In this document: in pieces, positions 24,560 to 58,820 of the stretch | Layout: every line of letters begins with the position of its first letter | Position numbering within the stretch: position 1 is the stretch's first letter | DNA from: Sphingobacteriaceae bacterium | Lineage (GTDB): Bacteria > Bacteroidota > Bacteroidia > Sphingobacteriales > Sphingobacteriaceae | NCBI GenBank assembly: GCA_903642215.1 | Contig: CAHJWG010000002.1 | Span: forward strand, 248,001-312,000 | Length of the DNA stretch: 64,000 nt | Direction of reading: 5' to 3' | Notes under the pieces: generated by a model | What the model saw: the letters and a program-made list of their open reading frames with translations, nothing else | Database searches by the model: none | What the model was told of the DNA's origin: nothing | Made by a program: the position numbers and the translations under genes

Positions 24560-26782
24560 TTATTCGCCTAAAATTTGGTGCAAAACGTTATCATAAACTG
24601 CTGATGCTTCTTTTATCGACCCAAAATCAGTGTCGTCAACTTCCAGGTTTCCAGAAGTAACGGTTCCCAAAAAGCTAAATTCGGTTTCCGAAGTCGCCAT
24701 CAATTCTACCAAAGCTTCCTGATTTTCCGGTTTAATGGAAACCACAACCCTGCCTTGCGCTTCACCAAAAAGGAAAGCATCTTTACGGATTTCTTCATCC
24801 GTTTCAATTTCAAAACCTAAAGAGTTTGGCAGCGAAGATTCCAGTAAAGCGATGTATAAACCGCCATCAGCCACATCATGCGCTGAAATGAGCAGCTTTT
24901 CGTGGATCAGTTGTTTGATGACCTGGTGCATCGCATACTCTTTTTCCAGATCAAAATACGGAGCCGGCGAAGCTGAGATATGATGGAAAGAAGCTAAGTA
25001 TTGAGAAGAAGAAATATCGTTTTTAGGTTCGCCAATCAGATAGATCAGATCACCTTCATTCCTGAAATCAGAACGGGTTAAGGTTAAAAGATCGTCCATT
25101 ACGCCCAGCATACCGATCGTTGGCGTTGGAAAAACCGGACCTTCATCACTCGATTGATTGTAAAAACTTACATTTCCGCCCGTAACAGGCGTTTCAAATT
25201 TGGTGCAAGCCGCGCTCATTCCTTTAATCGCACCCACAAATTGCCAGTAAACTTCAGGAACGTATGGATTGCCAAAGTTCAAGCAATTGGTAATCGCAAC
25301 CGGCTCGCCGCCGGCACAAGTGATATTACGCGCAGCTTCGGCAACGGCAATCTGGCAACCAATTTCAGGATCGGCATAAACGTATCTGGAATTACAATCC
25401 AACGTTAAAACAATGGCTTTATCGGTTCCTTTTACGGCAACAACTGCGGCATCGCAAGGCTGATTGGTAGTTACAGTGGAAGTGCCAACCATCGAATCGT
25501 ACTGATCGGTAACCCAACGTTTGGAAGCAATATTCGGATGAGAAATCAAGTGATCTGCAACTACTTTTAAATTTTCAGGTTCCTGAACCTGATCAATATT
25601 GAATTTTTTATTCTCCGCAAAGTAAGCCGGTTCGCGGTATTCACGTTCGTAAACCGGCGCACCTCCGCCTAAAACCAAATCATCAGCCGGAACATCTGCC
25701 ACCATTTCGCCATTACGATAATAAACTAAGCGTTTGGTATCGGTTACTTCACCGATCTGCACGCAGTTTAAATCCCATTTGTCAAAAACAGCCTGCACTT
25801 CTGCTTCGCGGCCTTTCTCCACCACAATCAGCATCCGTTCCTGTGATTCTGAAAGTAGAATTTCAAACGGCTGCATATTTTCTTGCCGCGTTGGGACTTT
25901 ATCCAGATCGATAATCATTCCGTGTTCGCCTTTGGCAGACATTTCTGAATTGGAACAAATAATCCCGGCCGCGCCCATATCCTGCATCCCGATTACGGCT
26001 CCGGTTTTAATCACTTCCAAAGAAGCTTCCAATAATAATTTTTCCTGAAAAGGATCGCCAACCTGAACGGCAGGCAAATCATTCACAGAATCTTCCGTGA
26101 TATTTTTAGAGGCGAAAGCAGCACCGTGAATCCCGTCTTTTCCGGTTGAAGAACCCACAATATAAACCGGATTACCTACGCCGTAAGAAGTTGCCGAAAC
26201 CGTTTCGCCAGCCTTCACAATTCCGGCAGAGAACGCATTTACCAACGGATTTACCTGGTAGCATTCATCAAAAAACAACTCGCCGCCCACGGTTGGGATG
26301 CCAAAAGCATTACCGTAATCGCCAATTCCTTTTACTACTCCTTTTATCAACCATTTTGTGCGATCGTTTTTCAGATCCCCAAAACGAAGTGAATTTAATT
26401 GTGCAATCGGACGCGCGCCCATCGTAAAAATATCCCGGTTGATGCCGCCAACGCCTGTTGCCGCGCCCTGATAAGGTTCCAACGCGGAAGGATGATTGTG
26501 CGATTCGATTTTAAAAGCGCAGCCGATTCCATCACCCAGATCAACCAAACCGGCGTTTTCTTCTCCCGCCTTAGCCAGCATCCGCGGACCATCTTTCGGT
26601 AGTTTTTTTAGCCAGGTGATGGAGTTTTTGTAGGAACAATGTTCGCTCCACATCACCGAAAAAATAGAAAGTTCGGTAAAGTTGGGCGTGCGGCCTAATA
26701 TTTCTTTAATGCGATTGTATTCTTCGGGAAGCAGGCCAAGGTCTTTGGCGGTTTGTTCGGTAGTTAAATTTTGCGACTCCAA
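24560..26782 (-). CDS. purL: Phosphoribosylformylglycinamidine synthase II (small PurL)
   Basis: The 740-residue enzyme makes formylglycinamidine ribonucleotide in purine synthesis and works with PurQ and PurS, which are not in the window. Motifs include MWSEHCSYKNS near 47-57, KIESHNHPSALEPYQGAATGVGG and the PurM-like ADGGLYIALLESS. The length is that of the small PurL form. The start read here is TTG (MESQNLTTEQTAKDLGLLPEEY); no in-frame ATG gives a better N-terminus. An exact dispersed-motif copy (24604-24615) encodes GSIKEAS near the C-terminus. Confidence 0.95.
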   Translation of the reverse strand: MESQNLTTEQTAKDLGLLPEEYNRIKEILGRTPNFTELSIFSVMWSEHCSYKNSITWLKKLPKDGPRMLAKAGEENAGLVDLGDGIGCAFKIESHNHPSALEPYQGAATGVGGINRDIFTMGARPIAQLNSLRFGDLKNDRTKWLIKGVVKGIGDYGNAFGIPTVGGELFFDECYQVNPLVNAFSAGIVKAGETVSATSYGVGNPVYIVGSSTGKDGIHGAAFASKNITEDSVNDLPAVQVGDPFQEKLLLEASLEVIKTGAVIGMQDMGAAGIICSNSEMSAKGEHGMIIDLDKVPTRQENMQPFEILLSESQERMLIVVEKGREAEVQAVFDKWDLNCVQIGEVTDTKRLVYYRNGEMVADVPADDLVLGGGAPVYEREYREPAYFAENKKFNIDQVQEPENLKVVADHLISHPNIASKRWVTDQYDSMVGTSTVTTNQPCDAAVVAVKGTDKAIVLTLDCNSRYVYADPEIGCQIAVAEAARNITCAGGEPVAITNCLNFGNPYVPEVYWQFVGAIKGMSAACTKFETPVTGGNVSFYNQSSDEGPVFPTPTIGMLGVMDDLLTLTRSDFRNEGDLIYLIGEPKNDISSSQYLASFHHISASPAPYFDLEKEYAMHQVIKQLIHEKLLISAHDVADGGLYIALLESSLPNSLGFEIETDEEIRKDAFLFGEAQGRVVVSIKPENQEALVELMATSETEFSFLGTVTSGNLEVDDTDFGSIKEASAVYDNVLHQILGE

Positions 26783-26879
26783 GTTGTTTGCTTTTGGTGG
26801 AAGGCCAAAATTATAAATTTAAAGCACGATAGCGAACGTAATCGCAATTAGCTGTGCAAATCATCCCAAAAAATAGGTC

Positions 26880-26916
26880 GTAAAAGAAGCATCAGTTTAG
26901 GTGATGCTTCTTTTAC
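26880..26916. repeat. Inverted pair of dispersed motifs forming a perfect hairpin
   Basis: Two exact motif copies, 26881-26892 (+) and 26904-26915 (-), extended by CA/TG and G/C to a 15-bp perfect stem with a seven-base loop GTTTAGG. A CCGGTATA flank follows. It sits in the 158-base gap upstream of purL and downstream of the TonB gene, where a terminator for the TonB gene would be expected; a T run is present within the motif arm itself (TTCTTTTA). Confidence 0.9.
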
Positions 26917-26940
26917 CGGTATATAATTAAAAATAAAACC

Positions 26941-27777
26941 TTATTCTTGAATAGTAAAATTAATCGGTATCGTATATCTTACCCGCACCGGTTTGCCGTT
27001 TTGAATGCCTGGTTTCCATTGCGGTGCCATTTTTAAAACGCGTTTGGCCTCCTCATCAAAGCCATGTCCGGCTGGCCGGCTCACCTGTATATCGGTAATT
27101 TTACCATCTTTCTCTACCACAAAACTCATGTAAACGCGTCCGGAAACGCCATCACTTGCAGCCTGTTCCGGGTAGCGCATGTTTTTGCTGAGAAATTTTG
27201 CCCAGGCTTCCATCCCACCCGGAAACTCAGGCAGTTTTTCTACCATCGCTGTATTTTTGATGCTATTATCCGGCTGATCTGTTGTACCCTCGCCCCCGGT
27301 TGTGCCGCCATTTACAGGCGTATTTAAACCAGGTAAATCTCCCGGAACATCCGTATTTCCGGCAATTGTATTTTGTGCTTCTATGGGTTTTGGGTCGGTT
27401 TTAGCCAGCGCATCTGCAACCGGTTTCATATTTTGCGAAACGGATACTACCGGTTTCTGCGCCGCACTTTGTGCCGGCAAAACCGTTTTTTTGCTGATCG
27501 GTTTATCCGGCGTAACCGGCGGCGTTTCAATATTACTTAAATCGATTATTATTTCCTTATCCGGTTTGATCACAGCCGCCAAATCCTGATGTGAACGGAT
27601 TAAATAAGAAGCAGAAAATAATCCGGCCGAAAACAGCACAGCCGTAATCAGCAAAGCTTTCAACAAATTGCTGTTGTAGTGCTTCCGAAGTTCGTAAGCA
27701 CCATAACTTTTGTTTCTTTCTGAAAATACAACATCGAGCCACTCCACATTGTACAAATTAAATTTTGACTGGAACAT
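26941..27777 (-). CDS. TonB-family energy transducer
   Basis: The 278-residue protein has a cytoplasmic N-terminus (SERNKSYGAYELRKHYNSNL), one transmembrane helix (about 37-57), a Pro/Lys/Thr-rich periplasmic spacer with PPVTPDKPISKKT, and a C-terminal TonB domain with FVVEKDGKITDIQVSRPAGHGFDEEAKRVLKMAPQWKPG. It couples proton-motive force from ExbB/ExbD to outer-membrane TonB-dependent receptors; exbBD are not here. The N-terminus shows the Bacteroidota style in which a GAYELR motif precedes the membrane helix. The start is ATG. Confidence 0.93.
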   Translation of the reverse strand: MFQSKFNLYNVEWLDVVFSERNKSYGAYELRKHYNSNLLKALLITAVLFSAGLFSASYLIRSHQDLAAVIKPDKEIIIDLSNIETPPVTPDKPISKKTVLPAQSAAQKPVVSVSQNMKPVADALAKTDPKPIEAQNTIAGNTDVPGDLPGLNTPVNGGTTGGEGTTDQPDNSIKNTAMVEKLPEFPGGMEAWAKFLSKNMRYPEQAASDGVSGRVYMSFVVEKDGKITDIQVSRPAGHGFDEEAKRVLKMAPQWKPGIQNGKPVRVRYTIPINFTIQE

Positions 27778-31594: not shown

Positions 31595-32413
31595 TTACCG
31601 GTGGTGTTTTCTATGCTTTCTACCAGAATTATTACTCTTTTTATGCGTTGTTTTCTTTGAAGATCTTCTGCGCGATTCAACACGGCGATGCTTCTTTTGC
31701 GAAGTATTTTTTGTGGAAGTAACCGGCGCGGCAGGCTTTGTTGCAGCAGTATCCTGCTTTGAAACAGTATTTTGCTTTTCTGCCTGATCTTTTTGTGATA
31801 CTGTTTTTACAGTGAAATTATTGTTACGGATCCCATATTCCAGCATTCGTTTATCAGCTTTTGCGGTGGTATCGTTGCCGTTCTCCACAGGAAATTCGCG
31901 CATTAAAACACCTTCCTTAATATAAAAATTATCTTCGCCATGATAACCTTTTCTTTGTGAAGAAGTTAGCTTTGGGAAATCCAGCTTTTGCGCTTTATTA
32001 TCTTTGTATTCAAAAGCATAAATCTGTGTACGAACGGTAGAATCCTTTGATTTTGCCTGGATCAAAATCTCCGGGTTACCATCCATATCCATATCCGTAT
32101 TGTAAACATCAGTAATTGCACCGTCCAAATCGCCTGTTGTGGTGGTGTATTTTGCTTCTGCCGAATCGGAGGCCAAAATCAAAAATGAACCTGTTTCTGT
32201 CGATCCTCTTCCCCAGCTAAAAACATCAAAACTGTTTCCAGGTGAAACCTCAACCACTTTGTGAAACCGGAAAGGCTGCGTTAAAACAGTTTTTCCCGGC
32301 GTAGTTACGGTTTGAACCGGCCTCTGTTCGTTTGTATTACAACCCGAAATTATTACTGTAAAAACAGCAATTACAAACGGTAATATGCTTCTTTTATCAC
32401 CTAAAAACATCAT
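31595..32413 (-). CDS. Lipoprotein with a basic C-terminal tail
   Basis: The 272-residue protein begins MMFLGDKRSILPFVIAVFTVIISGC, a lipoprotein signal with a lipobox ending in SGC. The middle (about 40-195) resembles proteins of the PliI lysozyme-inhibitor type (GSFLILASDSAEAKYTTTTG, DMDMDGNPEILI), but I hold this loosely. The last 60 residues are Lys/Arg/Ser-rich, ending in HRKHHR, and could bind acidic polymers. It follows the GH20 hexosaminidase gene after five bases. The first base usable as a start is a TTG at 32422; ATG at 32413 is preferred. An exact motif copy (32385-32396) and a sister copy (32359-32369) lie inverted within its signal-peptide region. Confidence 0.7.
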   Translation of the reverse strand: MMFLGDKRSILPFVIAVFTVIISGCNTNEQRPVQTVTTPGKTVLTQPFRFHKVVEVSPGNSFDVFSWGRGSTETGSFLILASDSAEAKYTTTTGDLDGAITDVYNTDMDMDGNPEILIQAKSKDSTVRTQIYAFEYKDNKAQKLDFPKLTSSQRKGYHGEDNFYIKEGVLMREFPVENGNDTTAKADKRMLEYGIRNNNFTVKTVSQKDQAEKQNTVSKQDTAATKPAAPVTSTKNTSQKKHRRVESRRRSSKKTTHKKSNNSGRKHRKHHR

Positions 32414-54884: not shown

Positions 54885-54926
54885 TGCTTCTTTTAACACC
54901 TTAAATTTTAGCTGGTAAAAGAAGCA
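54885..54926. repeat. Inverted pair of dispersed motifs upstream of tRNA-Arg
   Basis: TGCTTCTTTTA (54885-54895) and TAAAAGAAGCA (54916-54926) form an 11-bp perfect stem around a 20-base AT-rich spacer that itself contains TTAAATTTTA. The tRNA begins seven bases later (54933). The pair is the second such inverted arrangement in the window. Confidence 0.85.
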
Positions 54927-58652: not shown

Positions 58653-58704
58653 AAACATTATTTGGTAGCGATACCGGCATAATCAACTCCTTTCAAAGGC
58701 TTTG

Positions 58705-58810
58705 GTTTATAAAGAAGTGGCGAGAGATCAGGCTCTGAAACCCACTGGCAACCCTCCGCAAAGAGAAGGTGCCAATTCCTGGCCCGGCAAATAACCCCGG
58801 GAAATATAAA
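58705..58810 (+). ncRNA. SAM riboswitch (SAM-I family)
   Basis: The leader has the SAM-I core landmarks: AGAAGTGGCGAGAGA, GAAACCCACTGGCAACC and AAGGTGCCAATTCCTG, with flanking TTTAT/ATAAA able to form the P1 closing stem. It binds S-adenosylmethionine and is expected to switch off the homoserine/methionine genes when SAM is plentiful. There is no terminator hairpin with a T run between it and metX, so control is likely at translation or in another way. A 36-codon ORF follows directly. Confidence 0.92.
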
Positions 58811-58820
58811 TTGAAAAAAC

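Follow-up and report, generated by a model that had tools for sequence, protein, structure and literature searches.

A candidate terminator hairpin formed by opposed copies of a genus-specific, putatively uptake-signal-like motif in a Sphingobacteriaceae bacterium

A perfect hairpin between a tonB-like gene and purL of a Sphingobacteriaceae bacterium is built from two opposed copies of a dispersed motif that, among the genomes compared, is restricted to one genus and stands at chance level in the other members of the family and class. We give an even chance to a joint reading of these sequence data, in which the hairpin pairs opposed copies of a genus-specific recognition motif, acts as a terminator at the tonB-like 3′ end, and the motif is of the uptake-signal kind. 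The evidence comes from the hairpin itself, from the distribution, conservation and pairing of the motif, and from the competence and pilus genes of the genus.

Results

A perfect hairpin made of two motif copies

At positions 26880–26916 of the window (the whole 64,000-nucleotide stretch of DNA analysed), the sequence reads GTAAAAGAAGCATCA-GTTTAGG-TGATGCTTCTTTTAC, a perfect 15-bp inverted repeat. An earlier note on this DNA had described it as two motif copies folded into a hairpin between the TonB and purL genes; the arms are indeed exact reverse complements separated by a 7-nt loop, and gene positions together with Pfam domains place them between these two genes (Table 1). The hairpin starts 25 bp downstream of the stop codon of the tonB-like gene, which is probably the gene that it terminates.

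Table 1 Features of the window
Feature	Positions	Strand	Basis
Left arm, motif copy GTAAAAGAAGCATCA	26880..26894	+	26.9 bits in motif matrix
Loop GTTTAGG, 7 nt	26895..26901	.	Read from sequence, fold
Right arm, motif copy GTAAAAGAAGCATCA on − strand (TGATGCTTCTTTTAC on +)	26902..26916	−	30.6 bits in motif matrix
AT tract of left copy, AAAAAT, motif positions −12 to −7	26869..26874	+	Sequence and matrix
AT tract of right copy, ATTATA on − strand	26922..26927	−	Sequence and matrix
TonB_C domain protein gene (PF03544), tonB-like	26941..27777	−	Pfam
purL (PF00586/PF02769), downstream neighbour, same strand as TonB_C gene	24560..26782	−	Pfam
Converging motif pair, mixed words (AC + GA), within a gene	32358..32396 (bounds approximate)	.	
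Second inverted motif pair, diverging, shared AT tract, between HlyD-like gene and tRNA-Arg	54885..54926	.	
SAM riboswitch (RF00162)	58704..58812		69.8 bits

The hairpin is far above chance. Folded in isolation, the stem-loop has an energy of −19 kcal/mol (z −9); within its 81-nt context the value is −25.6, whereas shuffled versions average −9.65 (z = −6). Within 1.655 Mb of the source genome, 50 perfect stems reach 15 bp or more around a loop of 3–15 nt, whereas no such stem arose in any of three sequences of this length simulated under an order-3 Markov model. Of these stems, 21 are motif pairs and another 6 have a motif nearby; the other 23 are unrelated, which shows that the genome contains terminator-like hairpins of the ordinary kind as well. 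The 15-mer of the hairpin arm occurs in 75 copies in the genome, whereas its reversed control occurs in none.

The exact hairpin is not kept at this locus in two congeners, which counts against our best explanation. Each of the three species has several motif copies upstream of purL, in an arrangement that differs between them, indicating that motif sites turn over between genes.

A dispersed motif of about 28 bp

Motif statistics were collected from 1.655 of the 3.84 Mb (43%) of one draft genome that is 92% complete, with home-made gene calls and score thresholds of our own. Each hairpin arm is one copy of the motif (AT tract)-N2-SYGR-TAAAA[GA/AC]AGYATY. Alignment of core occurrences yielded a motif of ~28 bp, with an AT tract (AWTTTW) at positions −12 to −7, about two free bases, SYGR, the core TAAAA[GA or AC]AGYAT and a final Y, followed by a milder AT bias at +16 to +20; beyond this span, conservation drops to background. 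A position weight matrix found 1846 sites above 13 bits in the 1.655 Mb (1.1 per kb), against 23 in the reversed-sequence control. The sites are mostly single, lie within and between genes and occur in both orientations. Their most frequent core words are TAAAAGAAGYAT (GA; 976 sites) and TAAAAACAGYAT (AC; 485), with AA, GC and others rarer, and TAAAAGAAG is the top over-represented 9-mer of the sampled genome on an order-3 background. The two bases that tell the GA and AC words apart (positions 5–6) are correlated, and both words coexist in all three species of the genus. In the sampled contigs, overlapping 12-mers of ~66 copies also spell a separate 46-nt repeat that starts with GTTGTG and ends with CACAAC, probably a CRISPR array.

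The word TAAAAGAAGYAT is present in 1644 copies in the source genome and in 2321 and 2624 copies in two congeneric genomes, against 0–15 in 57 other genomes of the family and class. The AC word has 714–856 copies in each of the three genomes of the genus, and GRTAAAARMAGYATY, with 1249 copies in the source genome, has about 10 or fewer in 394 others of the class. The nearest named relatives by PurL belong to Mucilaginibacter (82–84% identical). K-mer counts in 20-kb samples of 20 further genomes, most of them from the family, turned up no comparable dialect of the motif, in samples small enough for a weak motif to escape, and viral contigs searched for exact copies of a 19-mer yielded one isolated match.

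Among 80 loci anchored on PurL, Fibrella showed a strong second motif and Pontibacter a weak one; strong k-mers at two other such loci were local repeats and were rejected as dispersed motifs. In Fibrella forsythiae HMF5405, the 9-mer AACGTACCT has 2635 copies in the 7.8-Mb genome (control, 20). Its consensus, AACGTACCTG, is without an AT tract and unrelated to the motif of the window; AACGTACCT was not found at the Fibrella level in the Rudanella, Spirosoma, Siphonobacter, Aquirufa or Pontibacter genomes tested, and PF00437 has no match over the cut-off in F. forsythiae. In an uncultured Pontibacter, octamers of the AAGTATAA/AACTATAG type are over-represented ~5–6 fold in 200 kb, a weaker and more degenerate pattern than the window motif. 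The Fibrella motif suggests that dispersed genus-level motifs may be commoner in Bacteroidota than reported; we found no description of such motifs in the open-access papers searched.

Conservation and genomic placement

Motif sites were compared with regions aligned from the two congeners (123 kb of one and 79 kb of the other, at 78–80% identity). Identity between species is 90–93% in the core and 87–88% in the AT tract, against 74–75% in the flanks. About 73% of the sites are kept in the other species, whereas a 12-bp core would survive by chance in ~3% of cases at 75% identity.

This pattern bears on the possibility that a short, hairpin-forming mobile repeat of the REP or MITE kind left these copies behind as remnants. 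Such an origin would fit the many dispersed copies, the hairpins that some of them form and the confinement to one genus, but conservation ends at the motif edges, loops vary in both length and sequence, and more than half of the sites are inside genes. Aligned sites keep their motif bases while the flanks diverge; with flanks not conserved, we reject copies of a mobile element and consider this origin very improbable.

Genes hold 56% of the sites; the remaining 44% are intergenic, in only 13% of the DNA. Site density is 0.72 per kb in genes; in intergenic DNA it is 4.0 where the flanking genes are codirectional, 5.0 where they converge and 2.4 where they diverge, such that codirectional and convergent spacers are 5–7 times as dense as genes. 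Orientation is near even, whether judged by contig strand or against the upstream gene. Strand counts on contig C1 are 639 to 604, and a Chi- or KOPS-like replication motif was rejected because strand skew is absent; an action of single sites as RNA signals was likewise rejected because of their near-even orientation to the upstream gene. The near-even orientation indicates that the motif most likely acts as double-stranded DNA rather than as an RNA signal; it is not a replication-oriented motif.

Spacing between sites is more uneven than random placement would give (CV 1.51 vs 1.03), with long motif-free gaps of 33, 23, 23, 15 and 12 kb. The gaps contain genes of a Mu-like prophage and of restriction systems, as well as a relaxase, a Piwi-domain protein and a lantibiotic dehydratase: the motif is depleted in recently acquired DNA and missing from islands with prophage, mobilisation or defence genes. 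One stretch of 71 kb (C1:49155-120478) is nearly without the motif and encodes type I restriction-modification, a Piwi-domain protein, a KAP NTPase and a lantibiotic dehydratase.

Inverted pairs at gene ends

The earlier note had set a genome-wide excess of inverted pairs as one of its tests, and the excess was found. Adjacent sites within 60 bp of each other form 122 inverted and 21 direct pairs (p about 2e-18), and at 26–60 bp, a range that leaves steric room for direct pairs too, 74 are inverted and 19 direct (p about 8e-9). With all orientations pooled, close pairs show no excess (239 within 100 bp, against ~285 for random positions); the enrichment thus lies in the inverted orientation and in particular spacings. 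Converging pairs prefer 10–12 and 20–31 bp, and diverging pairs 18 and 28–33 bp. At 61–90 bp, ~49 diverging and fewer than 15 converging pairs were counted. Inverted pairs recur at similar spacings in the two other species, in smaller samples (15 vs 8 direct and 7 vs 4 direct).

Converging pairs, the type to which the hairpin belongs, are concentrated at gene 3′ ends (34/38, against 540/1662 for single sites; odds ratio 17.7, p 8e-13), and by our gene calls their centres lie a median of 32 bp downstream of the stop codon. Diverging pairs show a weaker tendency (30/52, p 3e-4). The two arms of converging pairs agree at variable motif positions in 0.76 of comparisons, compared with 0.63 in random draws, and they match beyond the motif, at +13 to +16, at 0.45 compared with 0.28; for each measure, 0/2000 random draws were as high. 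This extra matching indicates that base pairing of the converging arms is under selection, on top of whatever maintains the motif.

On either strand, a converging pair has the layout AAAA-GAAGCATC-loop-GATGCTTC-UUUU. The core AAAAGAAGCATC, once placed in such a pair, would provide all the parts of a bidirectional terminator, namely AAAA, a GC-containing stem and UUUUA. To judge from shape and placement, converging pairs are likely bidirectional intrinsic terminators, and the opposed copies at the 3′ end of the tonB-like gene would be used in this way. The inner stem GAAGCATC/GATGCTTC is followed by UUUUA, and the shortness of this U tract speaks against the terminator part of our reading.

Selection for transcription termination could, in principle, have spread the motif mainly as a terminator half-site. 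This would account for the density of intergenic sites after stop codons, for the placement and extra pairing of converging pairs, and for the share of motif pairs among the longest perfect hairpins (21/50). It leaves aside, however, the 1666/1846 sites outside close inverted pairs and the majority of sites that lie in genes, as well as the near-even orientation to the upstream gene and the conservation of an AT tract that is outside the stem. We therefore consider a half-site origin improbable.

Competence genes and the type IV pilus

Known USS and DUS systems, as in Haemophilus and Neisseria, take up DNA through type IV pili. In the three genomes of the genus, the pilus motor ATPase (PF00437) gave no match over the cut-off and the platform protein (PF00482) no match at all, and two of these genomes, the congeners, are 99–100% complete; the PF00437 ATPase is present in some other members of the family. 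The undetected motor and platform weigh against DNA uptake as the role of the motif, and the motif cannot be filed as a classical USS or DUS.

ComEC, DprA and HHH-domain proteins are present in the genus, although ComEC and DprA are widespread in bacteria and so are weak evidence for uptake. In the source genome, comEC lies 2 bp behind the gene for a 681-aa protein (contig C2, about 70–74 kb). Read by eye, this protein is probably an HHH domain joined to an outer-membrane barrel; it has no family in Pfam, NCBIfam or PDB. The pair of HHH-barrel gene and comEC is conserved across most of the family genera sampled, and it cannot, being family-wide, explain a motif found in only one genus.

The main alternative to uptake is that a nucleoid or chromosome-maintenance protein peculiar to the genus binds the motif, with inverted pairs at gene ends co-opted as terminators and no import of DNA. 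An AT tract with a core resembles a double-stranded DNA binding site, and conservation between species, the absence of strand skew and a genus with no detected pilus motor or platform all agree with this; conservation and genus specificity, which we take as signs of uptake, fit a DNA-binding protein with another role as well. On the other side, the motif has three traits typical of uptake sequences: it occurs at ~1/kb, favours 3′ ends and is absent from acquired islands. To our knowledge, no nucleoid protein has thousands of sites as specific as this motif, and no candidate protein was identified. On balance, we regard a nucleoid role as unlikely, though worth keeping in view.

Discussion

Taken as a whole, the motif is in our analysis best accounted for, as a single reading, by DNA uptake, which would cover its genus specificity, its density, its conservation in and out of genes, its absence from islands and its co-option in terminators. 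A surface protein would recognise the motif as self DNA, and preferential import followed by recombination would spread and maintain it. Because pilus motor and platform genes were not found, we propose that import would take a pilus-independent route ending in ComEC and DprA, as reported for Riemerella anatipestifer. A pilus-free, sequence-specific import route is plausible. That the genus has evolved an uptake-signal system of its own, with sequence-specific import of self DNA by a machine other than a type IV pilus, we put forward tentatively, at somewhat short of an even chance.

The earlier note had likened the arrangement to that of Neisseria and Haemophilus. The likeness extends to genus specificity, to a density like that of USS and DUS, to an AT tract beside the core, to inverted pairs that follow stop codons and to scarcity in foreign DNA; it breaks down at the pilus, for which motor ATPase and platform were not found. 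The H. influenzae USS core has 1,465 copies at a mean spacing of about 1,000 bp (PMC7811141), and in some Pasteurellaceae species the USS motif is part of up to 22% of terminators (PMC13020248). The window motif shares with Pasteurellaceae USS a core with AT-rich tracts at about 1/kb, but it is unrelated in sequence, has its main AT tract 5′ of the core and has two core words; its host is a member of the Bacteroidota with no detectable pilus motor or platform, in which uptake is putative. Neisseriaceae DUS are spaced at about 1.1–1.5 kb, and their close inverted pairs act as rho-independent terminators (PMC2397512). Here too the motif is lineage-specific, similarly spaced and found in closely spaced inverted pairs, whereas its sequence is unrelated, it is longer and degenerate, it has an AT tract, and no counterpart of the ComP pilin receptor was identified.

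A closer comparison by descent is Riemerella, of the same phylum, with which the genus shares ComEC, DprA and HHH proteins. Transformation of R. anatipestifer depends on ComEC, DprA, ComF, RecA and an HHH protein, together with three more that resemble no known uptake machinery (PMC8459023). In R. columbina, own DNA competes in transformation at amounts where foreign DNA is without effect, and the top k-mers of Riemerella are A/T runs, with no clear dispersed motif established (PMC7965970). The genus of the window differs in having a dispersed motif and in that its competence is putative.

Pasteurellaceae and Neisseriaceae are both pilus-using proteobacterial families, and within the open-access papers searched, uptake sequences are named only in these two. 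Should uptake fail as an explanation, a protein that recognises thousands of sites per genome would still have to be accounted for. If the uptake reading is true, a Bacteroidota genus with no detectable pilus genes would have a motif that matches theirs in density, conservation and use in terminators, which would represent an independent origin, and the motif would offer a concrete handle on DNA uptake in Bacteroidota, a poorly understood process.
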